The notes beneath the pieces are model-generated. The model saw nothing but the letters and a program-made list of their open reading frames with translations. It did no database searches and had not been told where the DNA came from. A program made the translations under genes and the position numbers. DNA of 37,427 nt from a virus, in IMG/VR virus record IMGVR_UViG_3300025543_000082, positions 1-37,427 of that record, one strand, 5' to 3'. Shown here one piece after another: positions 1-37,427 of this stretch (positions are counted from its first letter, which is position 1; every line of letters starts with the position of its first letter).

Positions 1-43
1 TATTTGAAATGCTGATAGTGCGTCTGCTTCACCTTCTGTGATG
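1..43. repeat. Terminal overlap, left copy
   Basis: Bases 1-43 match 37385-37427 except at two positions (22 and 27). The repeat lies inside the primase-helicase Toprim codons and keeps the reading frame, which fits a circularly closed assembly rather than a functional terminal repeat. Confidence 0.9.
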
Positions 44-3137: not shown

Positions 3138-3172
3138 AGTGTACACTATAGAAGAACTATTTATTATGTCAA
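3138..3172 (-). promoter_or_regulatory. Early minus-strand promoter with palindromic operator
   Basis: TTGACA (3172-3167), 16-base spacer, TATAGT (3150-3145). The perfect palindrome AGTGTACACT (3138-3147) overlaps the -10 box, an ideal place for a repressor. It is back to back with the plus promoter at 3196, forming a divergent control region. Confidence 0.7.
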
Positions 3173-3195: not shown

Positions 3196-3224
3196 TTGAC
3201 CATGTGTTTTAAGTGTGCTATGTT
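3196..3224 (+). promoter_or_regulatory. Plus-strand promoter for the 85-aa gene
   Basis: TTGACC (3196-3201), 17-base spacer, TATGTT (3219-3224). The spacer contains TTTTAAGTGTGC, a near copy of the TTTTAAGTGTAC block of the divergent minus promoter, so both may answer to the same regulator. Confidence 0.65.
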
Positions 3225-3258
3225 GATCTTGTCTTAAACAAAGTAATGGAGAAAAACA

Positions 3259-3516
3259 ATGAGAATAGAAACATTAGAACTTAGTGACGGAACTATCGGG
3301 TTTCGTTTTACCGTAAAGAATAGCAAGAATAAAGTTCTTATTGCTGGTATTGTTAGAAACCACGTAACCAAAAATAAATGGTTACAAGTAAAGTCTTTAA
3401 AAACTTTCAATAAATTTAGTATCGGTTATTATACCATGTATGTACAAAAAACCATTAGCAAAACCAGAAAGTTATCGGACGGTTTTACTACTCCGAGATA
3501 TTTTTTCAACGTCTAG
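3259..3516 (+). CDS. Hypothetical protein, 85 aa
   Basis: MRIETLELSDGTIGFRFTVK... is a basic, beta-rich 85-residue product with the core KWLQVKSLKTFNKFSIGYY, many Lys/Arg and no Cys. It stands alone between a promoter (3196-3224) and a strong terminator (3526-3562), so it is a monocistronic unit. ATG 3259 follows AATGGAGAAAAACA, a good ribosome site. The charge and fold pattern suggest a small RNA- or DNA-binding protein, but I do not recognise it. Confidence 0.75.
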   Translation: MRIETLELSDGTIGFRFTVKNSKNKVLIAGIVRNHVTKNKWLQVKSLKTFNKFSIGYYTMYVQKTISKTRKLSDGFTTPRYFFNV

Positions 3517-3525
3517 TAAAAAGGG

Positions 3526-3562
3526 CAAAGTGGTAATTAATTTTACCACTTTGTATTTTTTA
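3526..3562 (+). terminator. Rho-independent terminator
   Basis: A perfect 11-bp stem (CAAAGTGGTAA paired with TTACCACTTTG, loop TTAATT) is followed by TATTTTTTATTT. It closes the 85-aa unit just before the next promoter. Confidence 0.9.
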
Positions 3563-3563
3563 T

Positions 3564-3593
3564 TTGACATTGTTTTATTTATCTATATATTAT
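3564..3593 (+). promoter_or_regulatory. Plus-strand promoter for the 58-aa/GP88 unit
   Basis: TTGACA (3564-3569), then TATATT or TATTAT at 16-18 bases (3586-3593), followed by GTGTATAA. It begins directly after the terminator's T-tract. Confidence 0.65.
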
Positions 3594-3625
3594 GTGTATA
3601 AATTAATAAAACAAAGGAGAATATA

Positions 3626-3802
3626 ATGGATTTAATTTTTAAAACTAATGCAGAAATGCGTAGATATATAAACTTTCAACATAGTACTAATAAAGATGCA
3701 CCGACATTGTTAAAAGATCGATATGCAACTTATGTTTCATGTGTTGGGTTTGATGTACAAACAAAACAAATTAAAAGTTTTAATCAATGGTTAGGGGAAT
3801 AA
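3626..3802 (+). CDS. Hypothetical protein, 58 aa
   Basis: ATG 3626 follows AAAGGAGAATATA, an excellent ribosome site. The product, MDLIFKTNAEMRRYINFQ... ending in FNQWLGE, is mixed alpha/beta with one Cys. It ends one base before the start of the GP88-family gene, so the two are co-translated from the same transcript. I do not recognise it. A partner or regulator of the GP88 protein is a reasonable guess from this spacing only. Confidence 0.7.
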   Translation: MDLIFKTNAEMRRYINFQHSTNKDAPTLLKDRYATYVSCVGFDVQTKQIKSFNQWLGE

Positions 3803-3803
3803 G

Positions 3804-4499
3804 ATGCTAGTAAAAGACGCAATAGAGTTCGGTAAAATCTCAAACGGTAATACTAAGATGCCCGGAACCACATTTTCAATTGATGCGTTTGCGTGTCAAA
3901 CGGGTTCTAAATTGGCTAAGATAAAAGGCACAAGTTGCAACAGTTGCTATGCACGCAAATTGCAAAAGCTTCGTCCATCGGTTGACATGGGTTACAAGTT
4001 AAACCTAGCAAAGTACAACAAGGCATTGTCAGAAGACAAATTGTTTACGTGGGTTTCTGCAATGGTATTTCAAATTGAGAGACAAGCTAAAAAGACTAAT
4101 GTTTATTATCATCGCTGGTTTGACGCTGGTGACTTACAAAGTGAACAAATGTTCAAAGCAATTTGTCTTGTTTGTGAGCGTACACCGAATATAAAGCATT
4201 GGTTGCCAACACAAGAGCGTAAATATATAAATGTTTATGCAATACCTAAAAATTTATGCGTTCGTATTTCTGGTACAAAAGTAAACGGTAAACCTAATTA
4301 TTTACGTAATTTTCAAAGTGATTACGGATTTTATAATAAAAGTTTTTCTTTTGATAACATTTGTACGAGTACCGTACACACAAAAGACCACGAACCAATA
4401 GGCAAAGAATGTAAAGCTTATACCCGTGAAAATAATTGTGGTACTTGTCGCGCTTGTTGGGATACTACTGTTAAGAATGTATCATACAAAAAACATTAG
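3804..4499 (+). CDS. GP88-family Cys-rich phage protein, 231 aa
   Basis: The N-terminal motif MPGTTFSIDAFACQTG (19-34) followed by SCNSCYARK (44-52), then HRWFDAGDLQS (103-113), CLVC (121-124), WLPTQERKY (133-141) and the C-terminal CGTCRAC cluster (212-218) match my recollection of the GP88 family (named for mycobacteriophage gene product 88). There are 11 cysteines in 231 residues, three in C-x2-C arrays, so metal or Fe-S binding is very likely. The order CxxCYA, 'R.x.D.GD', 'LPT..R' and 'L.VRISG' resembles a reduced version of radical-SAM-like TIM-barrel phage proteins such as DUF5131, which is inference. It is the second gene of a transcript closed by the terminator at 4520. Its cellular role is unknown. 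Confidence 0.8.
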   Translation: MLVKDAIEFGKISNGNTKMPGTTFSIDAFACQTGSKLAKIKGTSCNSCYARKLQKLRPSVDMGYKLNLAKYNKALSEDKLFTWVSAMVFQIERQAKKTNVYYHRWFDAGDLQSEQMFKAICLVCERTPNIKHWLPTQERKYINVYAIPKNLCVRISGTKVNGKPNYLRNFQSDYGFYNKSFSFDNICTSTVHTKDHEPIGKECKAYTRENNCGTCRACWDTTVKNVSYKKH

Positions 4500-4519
4500 A
4501 GTTTATTCTCCCAAACTTG

Positions 4520-4558
4520 GCAAGGTGTTATTAATTTAGCACCTTGCATCTTTTTGTT
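4520..4558 (+). terminator. Rho-independent terminator
   Basis: Stem GCAAGGTGTTA/TAGCACCTTGC (one G-T pair), short loop, then ATCTTTTTGTTT. It follows the GP88-family gene and abuts the next promoter. Confidence 0.88.
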
Positions 4559-4587
4559 TGACATTCTTTTAAAAAAAATAGTACACT
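4558..4587 (+). promoter_or_regulatory. Plus-strand promoter for the 55/68-aa unit
   Basis: TTGACA at 4558-4563, overlapping the terminator T-tract, then an A8 run and TAGTACACT. The -10 is TAGTAC (15-base spacer) or TACACT (18). The weak -10 overlaps a GTACACT operator-like block, so activity may be regulated. Confidence 0.55.
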
Positions 4588-4624
4588 ACTGATGCAGAAA
4601 CTTTAAAAATAAAGGGAATATAAA

Positions 4625-4792
4625 ATGATTAAAGTAATTGCTTATGATATTGATAATAAAATACTAGAAATTCATATTTTCGAGAATCAACATAGTCTTG
4701 ATATGCATGAACAAAACAGTATTTCTAGGTTTAAAGAAGTAGCAAAAGAAAAAAATACCGTTTTTGATTCAGTCGAGATTAAACAAACCTAA
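4625..4792 (+). CDS. Hypothetical protein, 55 aa
   Basis: ATG 4625 follows AAAGGGAATATAAA. MIKVIAYDIDNKILEIHIFE... reads as two beta strands followed by a charged helix (SRFKEVAKEKN) and a final strand. It ends 12 bases before the next gene, whose ribosome site overlaps its stop (TAAAGGAG). It is the first gene of a two-gene unit with its own promoter and terminator. Not recognised. Confidence 0.7.
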   Translation: MIKVIAYDIDNKILEIHIFENQHSLDMHEQNSISRFKEVAKEKNTVFDSVEIKQT

Positions 4793-4804
4793 AGGAGAAT
4801 ACTA

Positions 4805-5011
4805 ATGTCAGTACATATGTGGACTAAAAAAGAAACTCAAGAAACTATTAAAGAATTGCGTAAAGCCGGATATGTCATCGAGAAACCAAACGGTATTTAT
4901 AAAATCATGTACAAAGGCAAGCCTTGGATGATCGATGGAAAGCCTTTGTTTTCTGCAATGATAGGCATGGGAGGTTATCTAGTTAACTATCACGAAAGAC
5001 TAATGTCCTAA
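4805..5011 (+). CDS. Hypothetical protein, 68 aa
   Basis: ATG 4805 has AAAGGAG eight bases upstream. The N-terminal helix WTKKETQETIKELRKAGYVI followed by strands (KPNGIYKIMYKGKPWM) resembles small winged or beta-hairpin nucleic-acid-binding proteins, but that is only a pattern. The C-terminal LFSAMIGMGGYLVNYHERLM is amphipathic. It is the second gene of the third plus-strand accessory unit. I do not recognise the family. Confidence 0.75.
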   Translation: MSVHMWTKKETQETIKELRKAGYVIEKPNGIYKIMYKGKPWMIDGKPLFSAMIGMGGYLVNYHERLMS

Positions 5012-5031
5012 CAATTAAACAAACTCAAATT

Positions 5032-5066
5032 AAAACCCGATGTGTAACAGCGTTGGGTTTTTTTTT
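5032..5066 (+). terminator. Rho-independent terminator
   Basis: AACCCGATGT pairs with GCGTTGGGTT (some G-T pairs), loop GTAACA, followed by nine T. It ends the third accessory transcript. Confidence 0.88.
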
Positions 5067-5314
5067 GTCTCATACAATGCGCTGCTCTTTTGATACAGTT
5101 TATATCAATATTAGCGTTTTAAGAACTTCTTAGCACGTGTTTAATACATTTATATACTAACATACTAGCCAACTAATAAAACGATTGTAACAAGCTTAAA
5201 ACAGCGTACAGCGTATATTGTAAATAATACCATTAATAAATTAAATATATCAATCAAATGTATATCTATTGAACACACATGCTAACACCTAGATTTTTTA
5301 AACCACACTGTACC

Positions 5315-5332
5315 ACAATGTAAACACATTGT
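5315..5332. repeat. Inverted repeat ACAATGT-aaac-ACATTGT
   Basis: Perfect 7-bp inverted repeat with a 4-base spacer inside the non-coding region upstream of terminase. The same word recurs at 5425-5431 and, in part, inside the repeat at 5390-5406. Confidence 0.75.
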
Positions 5333-5389
5333 AATCAATAGCTTACCAATACTGTTACACATGAAACACGGGCCTATGTGTACCATAAA

Positions 5390-5406
5390 TGCAACACATT
5401 GTTGCA
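5390..5406. repeat. Inverted repeat TGCAACA-cat-TGTTGCA
   Basis: Perfect 7-bp inverted repeat with a 3-base centre. Too short and not T-flanked for a terminator, so more likely a protein-binding site. Confidence 0.7.
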
Positions 5407-5523
5407 ATCTGGACACAAACTGGTACAATGTGTGATATATATGTAACAGCAGACCCCCCCGTGGTGTAGCATAATGTTAATTGTTGTCTGTCCACATTTT
5501 TTGGGGTATTTTAAAATACGCTA

Positions 5524-5552
5524 TTGACTTTAGTGCTACACTATGATATAAT
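5524..5552 (+). promoter_or_regulatory. Strong late promoter for terminase/head genes
   Basis: TTGACT (5524-5529), exactly 17 bases, perfect TATAAT (5547-5552). The spacer contains TAGTG-cta-CACTA, an inverted repeat that resembles the AGTGTAC blocks of the early promoters. Its TTGACTTTA and TGATATAAT ends are shared with the promoter at 15463, suggesting a common late class. Confidence 0.85.
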
Positions 5553-5574
5553 TTAGTTAACATAGGAGTACCCC

Positions 5575-6030
5575 ATGCGTTTCGAAGACTACAAGAATCC
5601 AAAGACAATAGATAAAAAGCTTACCAAACGTGAGCAACAATTTGTACAATACCTCGTAGATGACAAGATGGATGTTGTCTTAGCCTACGAGAAAGCTGGG
5701 TACACGGGGAAGAACAAGGGTGTATTTAAACACCGTGCAAACAGAACACAAAGATACCTTTGGACACACATAGAAGCTAGGATCAAGGAGAAGGTATCTG
5801 AAACAGCTACCACTGCTCTAGGGGTACTAGAAGAACTACTTGGTTCAGAGTCGGACACAGTGAGACTAAACGCAGCTAGGGACATCCTCAGCAGAGCAGG
5901 ATACGATGCTGTACAGAAGCAAGAAACCACTTTGAAAGATGTCATAGAGCTTACAGACGAAGAGATAGACAAGCAGATACAGAAGCTGGTAAAAGACAAC
6001 GTGGTAAAGTTTCCAAAGGAAGTAAAATAG
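5575..6030 (+). CDS. terS: Terminase small subunit, 151 aa
   Basis: The N-terminal region LTKREQQFVQYLVDDKMDVVLAYEKAGYTG is the helix-turn-helix typical of phage terminase small subunits (Terminase_2-like), which bind the packaging site. A long helical centre (about 75-110) would form the oligomer ring and the acidic/basic tail (TDEEIDKQIQKLVKDN) would contact the large subunit. ATG 5575 follows CATAGGAGTA. It stops one base before the TTG start of the large subunit gene and is the first late gene after the promoter at 5524. Confidence 0.88.
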   Translation: MRFEDYKNPKTIDKKLTKREQQFVQYLVDDKMDVVLAYEKAGYTGKNKGVFKHRANRTQRYLWTHIEARIKEKVSETATTALGVLEELLGSESDTVRLNAARDILSRAGYDAVQKQETTLKDVIELTDEEIDKQIQKLVKDNVVKFPKEVK

Positions 6031-9869: not shown

Positions 9870-10895
9870 TTGGCTACTAATAAAAAGATAACTGCTCTTT
9901 CAGAATTATCTGAAATAAATCTTGCGGATGACGATGTTCTTGCTGTAGTAGATGTTAGTGCAGGTACAACCCACAAAGTAAGAAAATCAACCTTGGCATC
10001 TGCCTTAGCTGGTGTTGCTTCTATATCAGCAGATAGTCCATTAGCTGTAAGTGCATCCACGGGATCAGTTACTGTAAGCACAGGAACCATACCTGTTTCC
10101 AAAGGGGGTACAGGTGCTACTTCACTGACAGACGGTGGTGTGCTATTAGGTTCTGGTACAGGTGCTGTAACTGCTATGGGTGTGTTATCTGATGGTCAAA
10201 TGATCGTAGGAGATGGTACAACAGACCCGGTAGCTGAGAGTGGAGCTACACTGCGTACCTCTATAGGTCTTGGGTCTATTGCTACTCAAGCTTCTGACTC
10301 CGTAAGTATTTCAGGAGGATCAATAACAGGTATTACTGATCTAGTTGTAGCAGACGGTGGTACAGGTGCATCTAGTTTAACTGATGGTGGAGTTTTGTTA
10401 GGATCAGGTACAGGAGCTATTACAGCAATGGCTGTACTAGGTGACGGTGAGATGATCGTTGGTGACGGTACAACTGATCCAGTTGCAGAAAGTGGAGCTA
10501 CTCTTAGGACTTCTATTGGCGTAGCAATAGGGTCTGACGTACAGGCTTTTGATGCAGACACCTTAAAAGCTGATACCGCAGACAATCTTACTGCTGGTTT
10601 TTCCACAACGGTACACGATGCTGGAACTAAATCTTCAGGAACTTACACACCTGACCAAGATGACGGCAACATACAAAAAGCTGTCAATGGAGGAGCGCAC
10701 ACATTAGCTCCAACAGTCGATGATTGTGCAGTAATAATTCAATACACCAACAACGCTAGTGCTGGAACAATCACAACGTCTGGTTTCACATTGGTCGATG
10801 GTGATGACATTAGCACAACTAACGGAGATGATTTCTTTTTCTATCTAACTAAAGCAAACGGATTTTCCCTTTTGACAGTGAAAGCTCTCCAATAA
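9870..10895 (+). CDS. Tail-fibre-like protein with internal repeats, 341 aa (TTG start)
   Basis: The start is TTG 9870 with GGGGAGG upstream. The N-terminus (TALSELSEINLADDDVLAVVDVSAGTTHKV) matches the short 'ITALSEL...DDVLAVVDVSA' modules that begin many phage fibre proteins. Two nearly identical 55-residue units (79-133 and 163-217) start GGTGATSLTDGG / GGTGASSLTDGG and end TLRTSIG, giving an 84-residue period that includes a variable linker. Such GGTGA repeats build trimeric fibre shafts. The C-terminal part (about 270-341) is a beta domain that could be the tip or the attachment point for the next protein. It overlaps the adhesin gene by one base. Confidence 0.75.
   Translation: MATNKKITALSELSEINLADDDVLAVVDVSAGTTHKVRKSTLASALAGVASISADSPLAVSASTGSVTVSTGTIPVSKGGTGATSLTDGGVLLGSGTGAVTAMGVLSDGQMIVGDGTTDPVAESGATLRTSIGLGSIATQASDSVSISGGSITGITDLVVADGGTGASSLTDGGVLLGSGTGAITAMAVLGDGEMIVGDGTTDPVAESGATLRTSIGVAIGSDVQAFDADTLKADTADNLTAGFSTTVHDAGTKSSGTYTPDQDDGNIQKAVNGGAHTLAPTVDDCAVIIQYTNNASAGTITTSGFTLVDGDDISTTNGDDFFFYLTKANGFSLLTVKALQ
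10104..10268 (+). repeat. Fibre repeat unit 1 (55 codons)
   Basis: Codes for the GGTGATSLTDGG...TLRTSIG unit. Its partner at 10356-10520 is 252 bases away. The two differ at scattered synonymous sites, so the amino acids are better conserved than the DNA. Confidence 0.8.
10356..10520 (+). repeat. Fibre repeat unit 2 (55 codons)
   Basis: Second copy of the GGTGA fibre unit (GGTGASSLTDGG...TLRTSIG). See unit 1. Confidence 0.8.
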
Positions 10896-13800
10896 TGTTC
10901 GCTTCTATCTACTCAATGCAGGGTGGCTCTAGTCTCTTTGGTGGGGACTTCTTTGCCACAGGTGGTAACACCATTACAGGTGCTGGGTTGAATATTGTCC
11001 ACACATTTACAGGTAGTGGTACGTTTGCCGTTGTTAAAGGTTCAACTGCGGTTAGCTATCTCGTGATTGCTGGAGGAGCAGGTGGTGGTGGTTATGCAGG
11101 TGGAGGTGGTGCTGGAGGTTATCGAGCATCTTTTAATAACGAAGCATCTGGAGGTGGAGCATCAAGCGAAACTAGTCTTACCTTGGGTACAGGAAGTTAC
11201 ACCTGCACAGTTGGAGCAGGTGGTGCTGGTGGAGGTAACGCAAGTACTGTAGGCGCAAACGGTGCAAATTCAGTCTTTAGTTCAATTACATCTATAGGCG
11301 GAGGTGGCGGAGGTTCTACTCTTAGCGGATCGGGAACTGCTGGAGCTAATGGTGGTTCTGGCGGTGGCGGTTCGTGGGGAGGTTCTCCTATGTCAAACGC
11401 AGGTGCTGGAACTTCAAACCAAGGTTTTGCTGGTGGAGTTGGTGATCCTATTGATAACGGAGGCGGTGGTGGAGGCGGTGGCGCAAGTGCCGTTGGAACC
11501 AATGTTTCTGGAACAACCGCTGGAAATGGTGGTGCTGGCGTAGCGTCTACAATTACTGGGTCATCTGTTACTCGTGCTGGCGGTGGCGGAGGCGGAATGG
11601 GATTAAGTGGTGGATCAGGATCAGGCGGATCAGGTGGAGGAGGACATGGAGGAGACAGAGGATCATCTAACCCAAATTCTGTTGCTGGAACTACAAACAC
11701 AGGAAGCGGAGGAGGTGGTGGAGATGGAACATCTAATTTTGGCTCTGCTGGTGGTTCAGGCGTAGTCATAGCAAGTTACAGACCAACATTAGAAGCCGCT
11801 ACAGGTGGAAACACCATTGCAACACTAGGCAACTACACAATACACACATTTACAAGTTCTGGCACATTTACAATACCAGAGAACAAAAGAGTACCAATTC
11901 AATACCTTGTTATTGCTGGCGGTGGCGCAGGTGGTGGAAAGAGTGGCGGTAACGGTGCTATAAGTGGCGGTGGTGCAGGTGGTTACAGAAATTCTACTCT
12001 TGGCGAAACATCGGGTGGAAGTAGTAGCACTGAAGCAACATTATCATGTGTTGGTGGCAATTACACAGTTACAGTTGGTGCAGGAGGTACAGGTGATACA
12101 GGCAGTGATAATCATGGTAGTGACAGTGTATTTGGATTAAATCCATCAGTCGTTCTTCCAACTGTAACTTTTGATGGTACTAATGATTATTTATCTTATA
12201 GTGGAACTCCAATGCCTGACGGCCCTGCGGGTACTTTTTCATGCTGGTTTAGATTTGATGAGGCACTATCTGGAGTGGCGGATTATTTTTATCAGTCAGG
12301 TGGAACGCACTTTGATATTCGAAGAAACGAATACAACCAAATATCTATAATAGGATATACCTCATCAAATGGTTTTCTTTTTAGCGTATACAGTTCTTCA
12401 ACAACTTTTGGTACAGTTAGCACTGATTGGCATCATGTTGTTATCAGTTGGAATTTAGTTTCTAGTCCAGTGTGTCATATGTACATTGACGGAGTAGCCG
12501 ATGTTGATATTCAAGCTATAAATGCTGGGAATATTAATTATTCTGGGAGTGGCAATACTCAAAAACTTGGCGCAGGTATTGATGGATCAGATAAATTTCC
12601 GGGTCAAATGGCTCAATTTTATCTAACCAATGAATATATTGATATTACGCAAGCCTCTAACCTAGCAAAATTTATAACTACGGGAGGTCGCCCTGTAGAT
12701 ATGGGGTCTGACGGAGCTACACCTACTGGTACAGCCGCAAAGTTATTCTTTAATAGCGCATTAGATTCATGGCACACCAATGATGGTACTGGTGGTGGTA
12801 TGACTGAGGTAGGAGCTTTAACTGCTGGTTCACCAATTCTTTTTACCCCTACTGTACTTAGTATTGGTGGTGGAGGTGGTACTGGAGGAACGTCAGCAGC
12901 ATCTGGAAAAGGTTCTGCTGGTGGTAATGGATACGGTGGTGGAACAGGCACTGCTGGTACGACAGGCCAAGGTTCTGCTGGAGGAATTGGTTTTTGGTCT
13001 GGAACAAACGGTGCATCAGGTGGCGGAGGGGGTGCAGGTGGTGCAGGTGTTGGAACGTCAAATACTACAGGCGGAGCAGGTGGAGCAGGTTTATCTTCTA
13101 GCATTACAGGTTCAAGTGTAACTCGTGCAGGTGGAGGTGGAGGTGGTTCTATGAACTCTACTCCGGGTGCAGGAGGTTCTGGAGGCGGTGGTGCTGGTGT
13201 AACTGGTTCAAATAACGGTGTTGCTGGAACAGTTAACACAGGTTCTGGGGGTGGTGGAACTGGAAATGTTCATGCTACGTCAGGTGCAGTCAATGGTGGA
13301 AGCGGTGGATCAGGCTTAGTTGTTCTTAAATACCGATCTTCAAATAATTTCACAGAGGCTACAGGAGGTACAATTACTTTCGATGGTGACTACGCAATAC
13401 ACACATTTAACTCTAGTGGAACCTTTTCTGTTAACACTGTTGGCGTTGCTGATAGTACTCTTGATTATCTTGTGATTGCAGGTGCAGGTGGAGGAGGAAA
13501 AGGTGCGGCAAATGAAGGTGGAGGCGGAGGTGGCGCAGGAGGTTATCGAGCTAGTTGGAACTCTGAAGCATCTGGTGGAGGTGGGTCTAGCGAGACAGGG
13601 CTAACAGCCTCTATTCAAGATTATACTGTAACTATTGGTGCTGGTGGTGCTGGAGATACAAGCACTGGCGGTACAGGAGCCAACGGAGCCAATTCAGTTT
13701 TTGGATCAATTACGTCAACTGGAGGTGGTGGAGGTGGTTCAGCTACAAACGGTGGAAATAATCCCGGAGCCGCTGGCGGTTCTGGGGGTGGTGCTAATTA

Positions 13801-14194
13801 TTCTGGTGCAGGTGGTGCTGGAACTTCTAATCAAGGATTTGCGGGTGGTACTGGGGGAGGTGGTTCTCCCGTAGCGGCATACTCAGGCGGTGGAGGTGGA
13901 GCAGGTGCAGTCGGTGCAAATACTAGTAGCGGAAATGGCGGTGCTGGTGGTGTTGGAGTAGCGTCTACTATTTCTGGTAGTTCAATCGTCAGAGCGGGAG
14001 GTGGCGGAGGTGGAGATGATGCCAGTTCAGCAGGAGGCGCAGGTGGAAACGGTGGCGGTGGACAAGGAGAGGTTTCTAGTTCTTCCGCTGGAACAGCGAA
14101 TACTGGCGGTGGCGGAGGCGGTGGAAATGGTGCTGGCGGAAATGGTGACGCAGGCGGTTCAGGTGTTGTAATCATTAGATACAAATATAAATAG
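10895..14194 (+). CDS. Giant glycine-rich adhesin with embedded LamG-like domain, 1099 aa
   Basis: The protein has three related modules. Each opens with a T-G-G-x-T-I...(I/V)HTF-x-x-SGTF strand pair and a YLVIAGxGGGG motif, runs through long GGGGG stretches with GGAGGYRAS, TVGAGG, RAGGGGGG and VNTGSGGGG blocks, and closes with a hydrophobic strand (VVIASYR, LVVLKYR, VVIIRYK). The modules start near 10965, 11790 and 13355. Such sequences form polyglycine-II sandwiches, as in the gp38-type receptor-binding adhesins of T4-like phages. Module 2 is interrupted by a roughly 240-residue domain (TVTFDGTNDYLSYSG, FSCWFRFD, WHHVVISWN, YIDG) of the concanavalin/LamG type, a probable sugar binder. It overlaps the fibre gene by one base and is the best candidate for the host-range determinant. 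Confidence 0.8.
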   Translation: MFASIYSMQGGSSLFGGDFFATGGNTITGAGLNIVHTFTGSGTFAVVKGSTAVSYLVIAGGAGGGGYAGGGGAGGYRASFNNEASGGGASSETSLTLGTGSYTCTVGAGGAGGGNASTVGANGANSVFSSITSIGGGGGGSTLSGSGTAGANGGSGGGGSWGGSPMSNAGAGTSNQGFAGGVGDPIDNGGGGGGGGASAVGTNVSGTTAGNGGAGVASTITGSSVTRAGGGGGGMGLSGGSGSGGSGGGGHGGDRGSSNPNSVAGTTNTGSGGGGGDGTSNFGSAGGSGVVIASYRPTLEAATGGNTIATLGNYTIHTFTSSGTFTIPENKRVPIQYLVIAGGGAGGGKSGGNGAISGGGAGGYRNSTLGETSGGSSSTEATLSCVGGNYTVTVGAGGTGDTGSDNHGSDSVFGLNPSVVLPTVTFDGTNDYLSYSGTPMPDGPAGTFSCWFRFDEALSGVADYFYQSGGTHFDIRRNEYNQISIIGYTSSNGFLFSVYSSSTTFGTVSTDWHHVVISWNLVSSPVCHMYIDGVADVDIQAINAGNINYSGSGNTQKLGAGIDGSDKFPGQMAQFYLTNEYIDITQASNLAKFITTGGRPVDMGSDGATPTGTAAKLFFNSALDSWHTNDGTGGGMTEVGALTAGSPILFTPTVLSIGGGGGTGGTSAASGKGSAGGNGYGGGTGTAGTTGQGSAGGIGFWSGTNGASGGGGGAGGAGVGTSNTTGGAGGAGLSSSITGSSVTRAGGGGGGSMNSTPGAGGSGGGGAGVTGSNNGVAGTVNTGSGGGGTGNVHATSGAVNGGSGGSGLVVLKYRSSNNFTEATGGTITFDGDYAIHTFNSSGTFSVNTVGVADSTLDYLVIAGAGGGGKGAANEGGGGGGAGGYRASWNSEASGGGGSSETGLTASIQDYTVTIGAGGAGDTSTGGTGANGANSVFGSITSTGGGGGGSATNGGNNPGAAGGSGGGANYSGAGGAGTSNQGFAGGTGGGGSPVAAYSGGGGGAGAVGANTSSGNGGAGGVGVASTISGSSIVRAGGGGGGDDASSAGGAGGNGGGGQGEVSSSSAGTANTGGGGGGGNGAGGNGDAGGSGVVIIRYKYK
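12137..12859 (+). other. LamG/concanavalin-like domain inserted in adhesin module 2
   Basis: In modules 1 and 3 the sequence NSVFSSITSIGGGGGG / NSVFGSITSTGGGGGG is continuous. In module 2 it is split after DSVFG and resumes at SIGGGGG. About 240 residues between hold LamG hallmarks: FDGTNDYL, FSCWFRFD, WHHVVISWN, MYIDG and GQMAQFYLTNEYID. The insertion looks precise at a surface loop. Confidence 0.7.
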
Positions 14195-36209: not shown

Positions 36210-37427
36210 TAAAATTCTTCCTTAACTACCTCTAATCTACCATTTATTTTGTTGTAGTACAACCTACCAGCTACTCCAGCATCTCCAGTGTATCTACATT
36301 TTAGTACTCGCATTGTAGTAGTGTTAGCTTCTCGTTCTTCGTCAGCCTGAGTATCTCGTTCCAAGGCTATCACGGTGTCGCTTATCTGACTTATACCATG
36401 ACTGCCTCTAAGATGACTTAGGTTTATCTCTGCACCATCTTCGTGTGACCTATCAGAGTTCATACGTCTAAGGTGCGTTACCAAGTGTATAGCACATCCT
36501 GTTTCTTCTGTCAACTGTCTTAACATAGTCATTGTCTTGTCTATTGCCTTACGCTCGTCTTGTATGTCAAGACCACTTACTAAAATACTCAAGTGGTCAA
36601 TAAAGATAACCTTACAGTCTAAGCCAACAACCATATATCTGACTCTGTTCAACAAGTCTTCACAGTTCATTGATCCGAAATGATCATACAAGTAAACTCT
36701 ACCTGTACCCAAGGTGTTATCAAAGTGTTTCTTTATCTCTTCCTTAGAGTACTGACTGAACACTTCGTTCAAGTGTAGCTTGTCGTTAGCTTCTATGGCT
36801 AGTATTCCACGTCTGGTACGATCTACTGACTCTTCTAGGGCAATGATACCTATGTTCATATCGGTGCTCTGTAAGTAGAAGTGCTGTAGTTCGCGCATAA
36901 AACTAGACTTACCCACGCCTGTACCAGCAGCCCAAGTGATTATCTCTCGCTGTCTTATACCGTAGGTTCTGTCTTGTAAAGCTTTCCAAGGGAAGTCTAT
37001 GCTCTGTAGGTTCTGCTCAGACCATAATCGGTCAAAGTCATTAGAAGCGTTCTCAATACCACTAGGTGTATAGACAGTCGCGTCTTTTAAGTGAGACATA
37101 AACTCATCTGTCATTGACTTAGAGGTGTACTCACAGGCATCTTTTAACTCTAGGTTAACAATCCTAGCTTTAGAAGGGCTAAACAACTTAGCAACCTTAC
37201 GCGAAGCTAACTTACCTTGATCATCAGAGTCAAAGCAGATAAAAATACGCTCAAACTTCTCTAGCAAGACAAGATTAGCCTTTATGTCTCTCTCTGCACT
37301 GGACACACCCGACTTGATTGAGAACACCGGTACTAATGTTTTCTTTAGTGCTATGTGTTCTGCATCGGGTTTAATACGGTTAGCTATTTGAAATGCTGAT
37401 AGTGCATCTGATTCACCTTCTGTGATG
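36209..37427 (-). CDS. Primase-helicase, Toprim end and DnaB-like helicase part; continues at left edge
   Basis: This is the 3' part of the gene whose 5' end is at 438-1. It begins mid-codon in the Toprim glutamate motif (ITEGESDALSAFQIA). It then shows the Toprim metal site FICFDSDDQGK and the RecA/DnaB-type helicase: Walker A GTGVGKSS (about 340-347 of the joined protein), IALEE, Walker B KVIFIDHLS, and HLRRM...SHLRGSHGISQIS sensor/arginine-finger region. The protein ends EVVKEEF, an acidic tail with terminal Phe like that of T7 gp4, which contacts the polymerase. The stop overlaps the polymerase start. Reading from 37327 alone (an internal GTG) would remove the whole primase part. Confidence 0.92.
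   Translation of the reverse strand, partial: ITEGESDALSAFQIANRIKPDAEHIALKKTLVPVFSIKSGVSSAERDIKANLVLLEKFERIFICFDSDDQGKLASRKVAKLFSPSKARIVNLELKDACEYTSKSMTDEFMSHLKDATVYTPSGIENASNDFDRLWSEQNLQSIDFPWKALQDRTYGIRQREIITWAAGTGVGKSSFMRELQHFYLQSTDMNIGIIALEESVDRTRRGILAIEANDKLHLNEVFSQYSKEEIKKHFDNTLGTGRVYLYDHFGSMNCEDLLNRVRYMVVGLDCKVIFIDHLSILVSGLDIQDERKAIDKTMTMLRQLTEETGCAIHLVTHLRRMNSDRSHEDGAEINLSHLRGSHGISQISDTVIALERDTQADEEREANTTTMRVLKCRYTGDAGVAGRLYYNKINGRLEVVKEEF
37385..37427. repeat. Terminal overlap, right copy
   Basis: Repeats bases 1-43 with two differences. One is synonymous (GAC/GAT) and one changes Ala to Ser in the Toprim motif (EGEAD versus EGESD). Confidence 0.9.

Follow-up and report, generated by a model that had tools for sequence, protein, structure and literature searches.

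Promoter-early stem-loop (PeSL) elements are known from T4-type phages (Arbiol 2010 and Comeau 2014, as cited in PMC4503421). In the haloarchaeal tailed virus HGTV-1, a repeated TATA-like region with an inverted repeat lies before many ORFs and has been proposed to function like a PeSL (PMC3950731). The SAS/ESAS of cluster K mycobacteriophages are short conserved repeats found before a subset of genes, and about half of them include inverted repeats (PMC3203893). The term moron is used of lambdoid phages and has also been applied to genes of the lytic phage SPP1 (PMC6316719).

The DNA examined here (the window), a virus record of 37,427 bases, comes from a marine phage. An initial annotation described three plus-strand units at 3196-5066, opposite the early operon, each with a promoter, one or two genes and a terminator, and the analysis confirmed three such units at 3196-5061. 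The best explanation of the region, to which we assign a probability of roughly 0.68, is that it is the inverted head of an early operon, divided into terminator-insulated units with PeSL-like exchange junctions.

Genome and setting of the region

The ends of the window (1-43 and 37385-37427) overlap imperfectly over about 40 nt, with a few mismatches and no exact end repeat, and contigs of relatives read straight through the junction. The imperfect overlap places the window close to a whole genome and suggests that the record is near-complete. Comparison of the window with the phage collection at the DNA level gave no match. By full-length terminase, its best relatives are about 50 kb Vibrio phages and one 39 kb Pelagibacter phage; judged on this protein, the phage is unrelated to T4.

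The leftward genes are of early type and include those for a DnaB-like helicase, DNA polymerase A and a pyrimidine-dimer glycosylase, along with small genes. A perfect 15-nt inverted repeat, TACACTTAGTACACT, lies inside this operon (2517-2531 and 2569-2583, 37 nt apart). The rightward late genes begin at 5575 with terS and include terL, portal and virion genes; a long gene for a glycine-rich repetitive protein of 1099 aa (10895-14194) is among them. The gap between the early and late genes holds the three units, whose features and flanks are listed below.

3145-3172, minus strand: promoter-like site, TTGACA-16-TATAGT, for the leftward early operon; back to back with P1 (consensus scan)
3196-3224, plus strand: P1, weak promoter-like site, TTGACC-17-TATGTT, 9/12 consensus matches (consensus scan)
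3259-3516, plus strand: unit 1 gene, 85 aa, of the DGT family (DGTxGFRF motif; homologs, dN/dS)
3525-3554, plus strand: T1, predicted intrinsic terminator, 12-bp stem, loop TTAATT, T-tract
3564-3593, plus strand: P2, promoter-like site, TTGACA-16-TATATT or 18-TATTAT, 11/12, abutting the T1 T-tract
3626-3802, plus strand: acc58, first gene of unit 2, 58 aa
3804-4499, plus strand: second gene of unit 2, GP88-family protein (PF17338), 231 aa (Pfam)
4520-4547, plus strand: T2, predicted intrinsic terminator, 11-bp stem, loop TTAATT, T-tract
4558-4587, plus strand: P3, promoter-like site, TTGACA-18-TACACT, 10/12, abutting T2; left-hand boundary of the exchange slot
4588-5016, plus strand: unit 3 cargo slot, with unrelated genes in relatives
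4625-4792, plus strand: u3a, unit 3 gene a, 55 aa, no recognised family
4805-5011, plus strand: u3b, unit 3 gene b, 68 aa
5032-5061, plus strand: T3, predicted intrinsic terminator, 12-bp stem; fixed right-hand boundary of the slot and final stop ahead of terS
5062-5574, no strand: AT-rich non-coding region adjoining terS
5524-5552, plus strand: promoter-like site of terS and the late operon, TTGACT-17-TATAAT, with TG ahead of the -10 box (consensus scan)
5575-6030, plus strand: terS, terminase small subunit, the anchor for comparisons (phrog_2538, E=4e-10)

Terminators T1 to T3

T1, T2 and T3 are the only strong plus-strand terminators found in the whole 37 kb window by a uniform detector (minimum stem 7 bp). 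Stems of 10 bp or more followed by a T-tract occur three times in the 2 kb of the region and not once in 300 Markov shuffles of it, and the 9 kb scanned for terminator-like sites yielded 13 against 4.5 expected by chance. The RNA folding z scores are -5.2 (T1), -5.1 (T2) and -5.0 (T3).

The stems are conserved through compensatory changes. Ten distinct T1/T2 sequences were compared, with the T1 of L008 left out because its different loop was misplaced by the aligner. Double-changed cells number 29, where shuffles give 9.1, and pairing is kept in 100% of cells; since two paralogous hairpins are pooled here, the count shows maintenance of the hairpin, not the frequency of change in each. The signal collapses once the partner is slid by one column. 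The five T3 sequences, a set that excludes the shorter form of L009 and L023, have 11 paired changes against 4.2 in shuffles. T1 to T3 each combine a G+C-containing stem-loop, a T-tract and a stem under selection, the features by which an intrinsic terminator is predicted, and they probably terminate transcription in vivo.

Conservation as RNA structure would equally be expected of processing or stability elements located at the 3' ends of one continuous message. That reading is very unlikely, however, in view of the T-rich tract directly after each hairpin and the -35 box at near-fixed spacing after T1 and T2.

Promoters and terminator-promoter junctions

Promoter-like matches as a class do not clearly exceed chance (35 found against 27.0 expected, s.d. 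5.9), so the individual promoter calls rest on position and conservation. Of 12 junctions compared across relatives, 11 have a -35 box that begins about 6-10 nt past the stem; in L014 the spacer is longer and the promoter matches the full consensus. A TTGAC box also occupies the P1 position in L006, L007, L027 and L023, and P1 itself and the P3 of some relatives are weak promoter matches. P1 to P3 are likely to be active promoters. The T1-P2 and T2-P3 composites are 72% identical across 50 nt and form direct repeats within one genome. A candidate operator motif near the promoters, AAGTGTACACTA, was rejected, its 48 matches comparing with 69 expected.

According to the initial annotation, each T-tract abuts the next TTGAC box. 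This is correct for T1 and T2 but not for T3, beyond which lie about 510 bp of non-coding DNA with the terS promoter-like site (5524). Just ahead of that promoter, at 5450-5560, is a terS-proximal motif consisting of a C-run, GTCCA and a G-run. By eye, the motif recurs ahead of terS in the sister clade described below, and it is a possible packaging or replication site. The terS-proximal non-coding element as a whole resembles its sister-clade counterpart by eye, and the BLAST matches between the two are short.

The window clade and the unit 3 exchange slot

Relatives were found by scans with terS, GP88, DGT and u3b and by mapping the window proteins onto all loci. L003/L018, L004 and L005/L019 are about 99.6-100% identical to the window over shared stretches and are counted as the same virus; about 72 bp of the early operon (1743-1815) is missing from the otherwise near-identical L004. 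L006, L014, L020 and L021 have about 93-95% identity over terS and beyond, and L007, L008/L027 and L009/L023/L025 are about 75-80% identical to the window.

Exactly three terminators are present, in place, in all five distinct phages whose sequences span the region (the window, L006, L007, L023 and L027), and T2 and T3 are present in L014, L020 and L021, whose contigs start inside GP88. The initial annotation had proposed comparing relatives for presence or absence of each unit as a block: whole-block gain or loss was not seen, and two or four units occur in none of the relatives. The first two units are largely stable. The unit 1 gene is retained across the clade at 27-85% identity and GP88 is retained in unit 2; acc58 is absent from L006 and L009/L023, and L006, L020 and L021 have an extra 190 bp or so between GP88 and T2. 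Nor are the units invariant across relatives, an outcome that the annotation had named, together with transcription as one message, as counting against it, since the cargo of unit 3 differs.

Unit 3 is a real exchange slot: it holds at least four unrelated cargoes, and its edges coincide with the T2/P3 and T3 signals. Its cargo is u3a and u3b in the window, genes of 58 and 98 aa in L006/L020, a single gene of 127 aa in L014, of 109 aa in L021 and of 113 aa in L027, and a u3b homolog alone in L007 and L023. Similarity to the window ends at 4555-4587, at T2-P3, and resumes at 5013-5017, just before T3. Within the slot, a 28-nt linker around the u3b ribosome-binding site (4780-4807) precedes different genes in L006 and L021 and is still about 96% conserved there, which suggests that ribosome-binding-site linkers may serve in swaps as well. 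u3a is confined to the near-identical contigs. Homologs of u3b are found in L007, L023, L059 and L115; the last (L115:3001-3228) lies about 300 bp past a strong terminator on a contig otherwise without a match to the window. Searches for other homes of the alternative cargoes of L014 and L021 found no relatives elsewhere.

These patterns bear on whether the composites are kept for shuffling itself, as a PeSL-type recombination system in which transcription control is secondary. The 50-nt direct repeats, the replaced segments that stop at T2-P3 and T3 and the additional short shared linkers around ribosome-binding sites within the slot all fit such a system. It is nevertheless unlikely: only a single slot shuffles, with no unit duplicated, deleted or relocated among the relatives, and searches for mobility of the terminator-promoter composite matched the pattern in this clade only, always in the same place. 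Recombination via the composites is suggested by the breakpoints at T2-P3 and T3, but selection on the signals alone would also predict conserved signals and swapped genes, and the two would look alike.

Orientation of the block in the sister clade

A sister clade of 14 contigs has GP88 in the same gap adjoining terS, but on the early strand. GP88 is usually accompanied there by DGT and sometimes by acc58, and the order DGT, acc58, GP88 is the same as in the window. The block heads the early operon, with the remaining early genes directly after it. GP88 and terS are thus divergent in the 14 sister-clade contigs and co-directional in 8 window-clade contigs, and the orientation changes once on a terS tree that is rooted on a very long branch. 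GP88 is also located beside early replication genes in CRP-4, L013, L059, L065 and L072, and in CRP-4 the terminase is on the strand opposite to them; the association of GP88 with early replication genes in these distant phages polarises the flip.

The genes of units 1 and 2 are widespread at the head of the sister-clade early operon, in the same order, which argues that these units are old early genes and not recent additions. This affects the interpretation of the region as three classical morons, foreign genes added successively, each with its own promoter and terminator. The promoter-gene-terminator layout, the cargo swaps in unit 3 and the two alternative cargoes without relatives elsewhere are what morons would produce, yet the long-standing presence of DGT, acc58 and GP88 in the same order and gap, together with the constant number of units, makes such a series of additions quite unlikely. 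Of the moron reading in the initial annotation, the autonomous-unit layout stands and unit 3 fits as an exchangeable accessory slot; units 1 and 2 do not fit as recent additions.

The simplest history would be an inversion of the DGT-acc58-GP88 block in the lineage of the window, with the terminator set present afterwards. Inversion and independent re-insertion are not fully separable across the distance to the sister clade (terS about 55% identity to the window clade), and among the repeats listed there is no convincing inverted pair at the flip boundaries. Strong terminators are absent from 9 of the 11 sister-clade regions scanned; L082 has one and L030 has two weaker ones, so hairpins can arise in that clade. 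Since the inversion would have happened once, in a single clade, the association of terminators with orientation counts as one observation and not as repeated evidence.

Gene products

The GP88-family protein matches Pfam PF17338 with E=3e-20 and 73.3 bits (curated cut-off 24.4). Its AF2 model has a pLDDT of 90, and the structural matches are to viral GP88 proteins in BFVD and, weakly, to a Gp37/Gp68-like protein. No PDB entry matches the model at E<=0.001. Radical SAM enzymes were considered as fold relatives: viperin scores E=0.08 with TM 0.26, and matches to viral radical SAM proteins are weak (E about 0.2). Two conserved cysteine clusters (C31, C45, C48 and C203, C212, C215, C218) would suit metal or Fe-S binding. 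DGT homologs are present in the clade and in many marine phages. The DGT product is predicted to be mostly beta, in a fair model of moderate confidence, and a fold search gave no match and no close solved structure.

The genes common to the lineages are under purifying selection, with dN/dS values of 0.09-0.27 for DGT, 0.05-0.12 for GP88 and 0.14-0.24 for u3b. As the initial annotation stated, none of the small products is recognised except the GP88-like one: PF17338 is the sole Pfam match, and the other small proteins have no significant match in Pfam, PHROG or PADLOC, which covers defence genes and not anti-defence genes. The suggestion that they act in anti-defence or host takeover gains nothing from these searches beyond the presumed early expression of the genes.

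A model for the region

Ancestrally, the genes for DGT, acc58 and GP88 would have led the early operon and been transcribed away from the terminase genes. The block would then have been turned around without leaving its position, with the remaining early genes on one side and the terS-proximal non-coding element on the other, and its transcription now runs toward the late genes. It would form three short transcription units, each running from a host-type sigma-70 promoter to an intrinsic terminator, with predicted transcripts of about 330, 960 and 480 nt. Early timing and use of the host RNA polymerase are suggested by the sigma-70-like promoters and by a search for a phage RNA polymerase that gave no match, a search that was silent in control genomes too (its positive control failed).

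Early genes aimed at the late operon and left unstopped would cause premature transcription of terS and terL. T3 above all would block early transcription from entering terS and the late operon; T1 and T2 would prevent read-through between units and keep them independent. Insulation of the late operon needs T3 alone and by itself leaves T1 and T2 unexplained. The conserved T2-P3 and T3 flanks may make the gene in unit 3 exchangeable by recombination with its neighbours undisturbed. A fuller sequence of events, in which the flip was followed by terminators at the unit boundaries and then by a PeSL-like slot, in a small phage and independently of T4-type phages, is tentative and falls somewhat short of even odds.

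If the model is true, the window clade is a natural experiment in phage gene order and makes it possible to test how a small marine phage could come by an accessory-gene slot through a flip, insulation and then cargo exchange. The interval from T2-P3 to T3 would also serve as a fixed site at which to collect, from environmental contigs, new genes that are presumed to be early and mostly lack known relatives.

Comparison with known systems

The closest likeness is to the PeSLs. In these, a composite of stem-loop terminator and early promoter lies between small variable genes and bounds their exchange. At the sequence level the window has a stem-loop followed by a promoter, a composite that recurs, and shuffled genes, the last in unit 3 only. 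PeSLs occur at high density in T4-type phages; the window, at 37 kb, has two composites only and one active slot, and its composites sit inside an apparently inverted early-operon block. The region seems to work like PeSLs, but we do not file it as a PeSL member.

HGTV-1 has similar repeated promoter and inverted-repeat motifs ahead of ORFs, but its promoter is of the archaeal TATA type and the motif precedes the majority of ORFs on the left-hand side of a large genome. The SAS/ESAS are alike in being short, conserved and partly associated with inverted repeats before some genes; they differ in being tied to translation starts, whereas the composite in the window joins a terminator to a promoter. 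Morons resemble the units in that a gene has its own promoter and terminator, here as read from the DNA, and in carrying accessory cargo. They differ in that a moron is present or absent as a block between genes that adjoin each other in relatives, whereas here units 1 and 2 are early genes of long standing and the unit count is constant. Exchange is confined to unit 3, which is replaced rather than absent.
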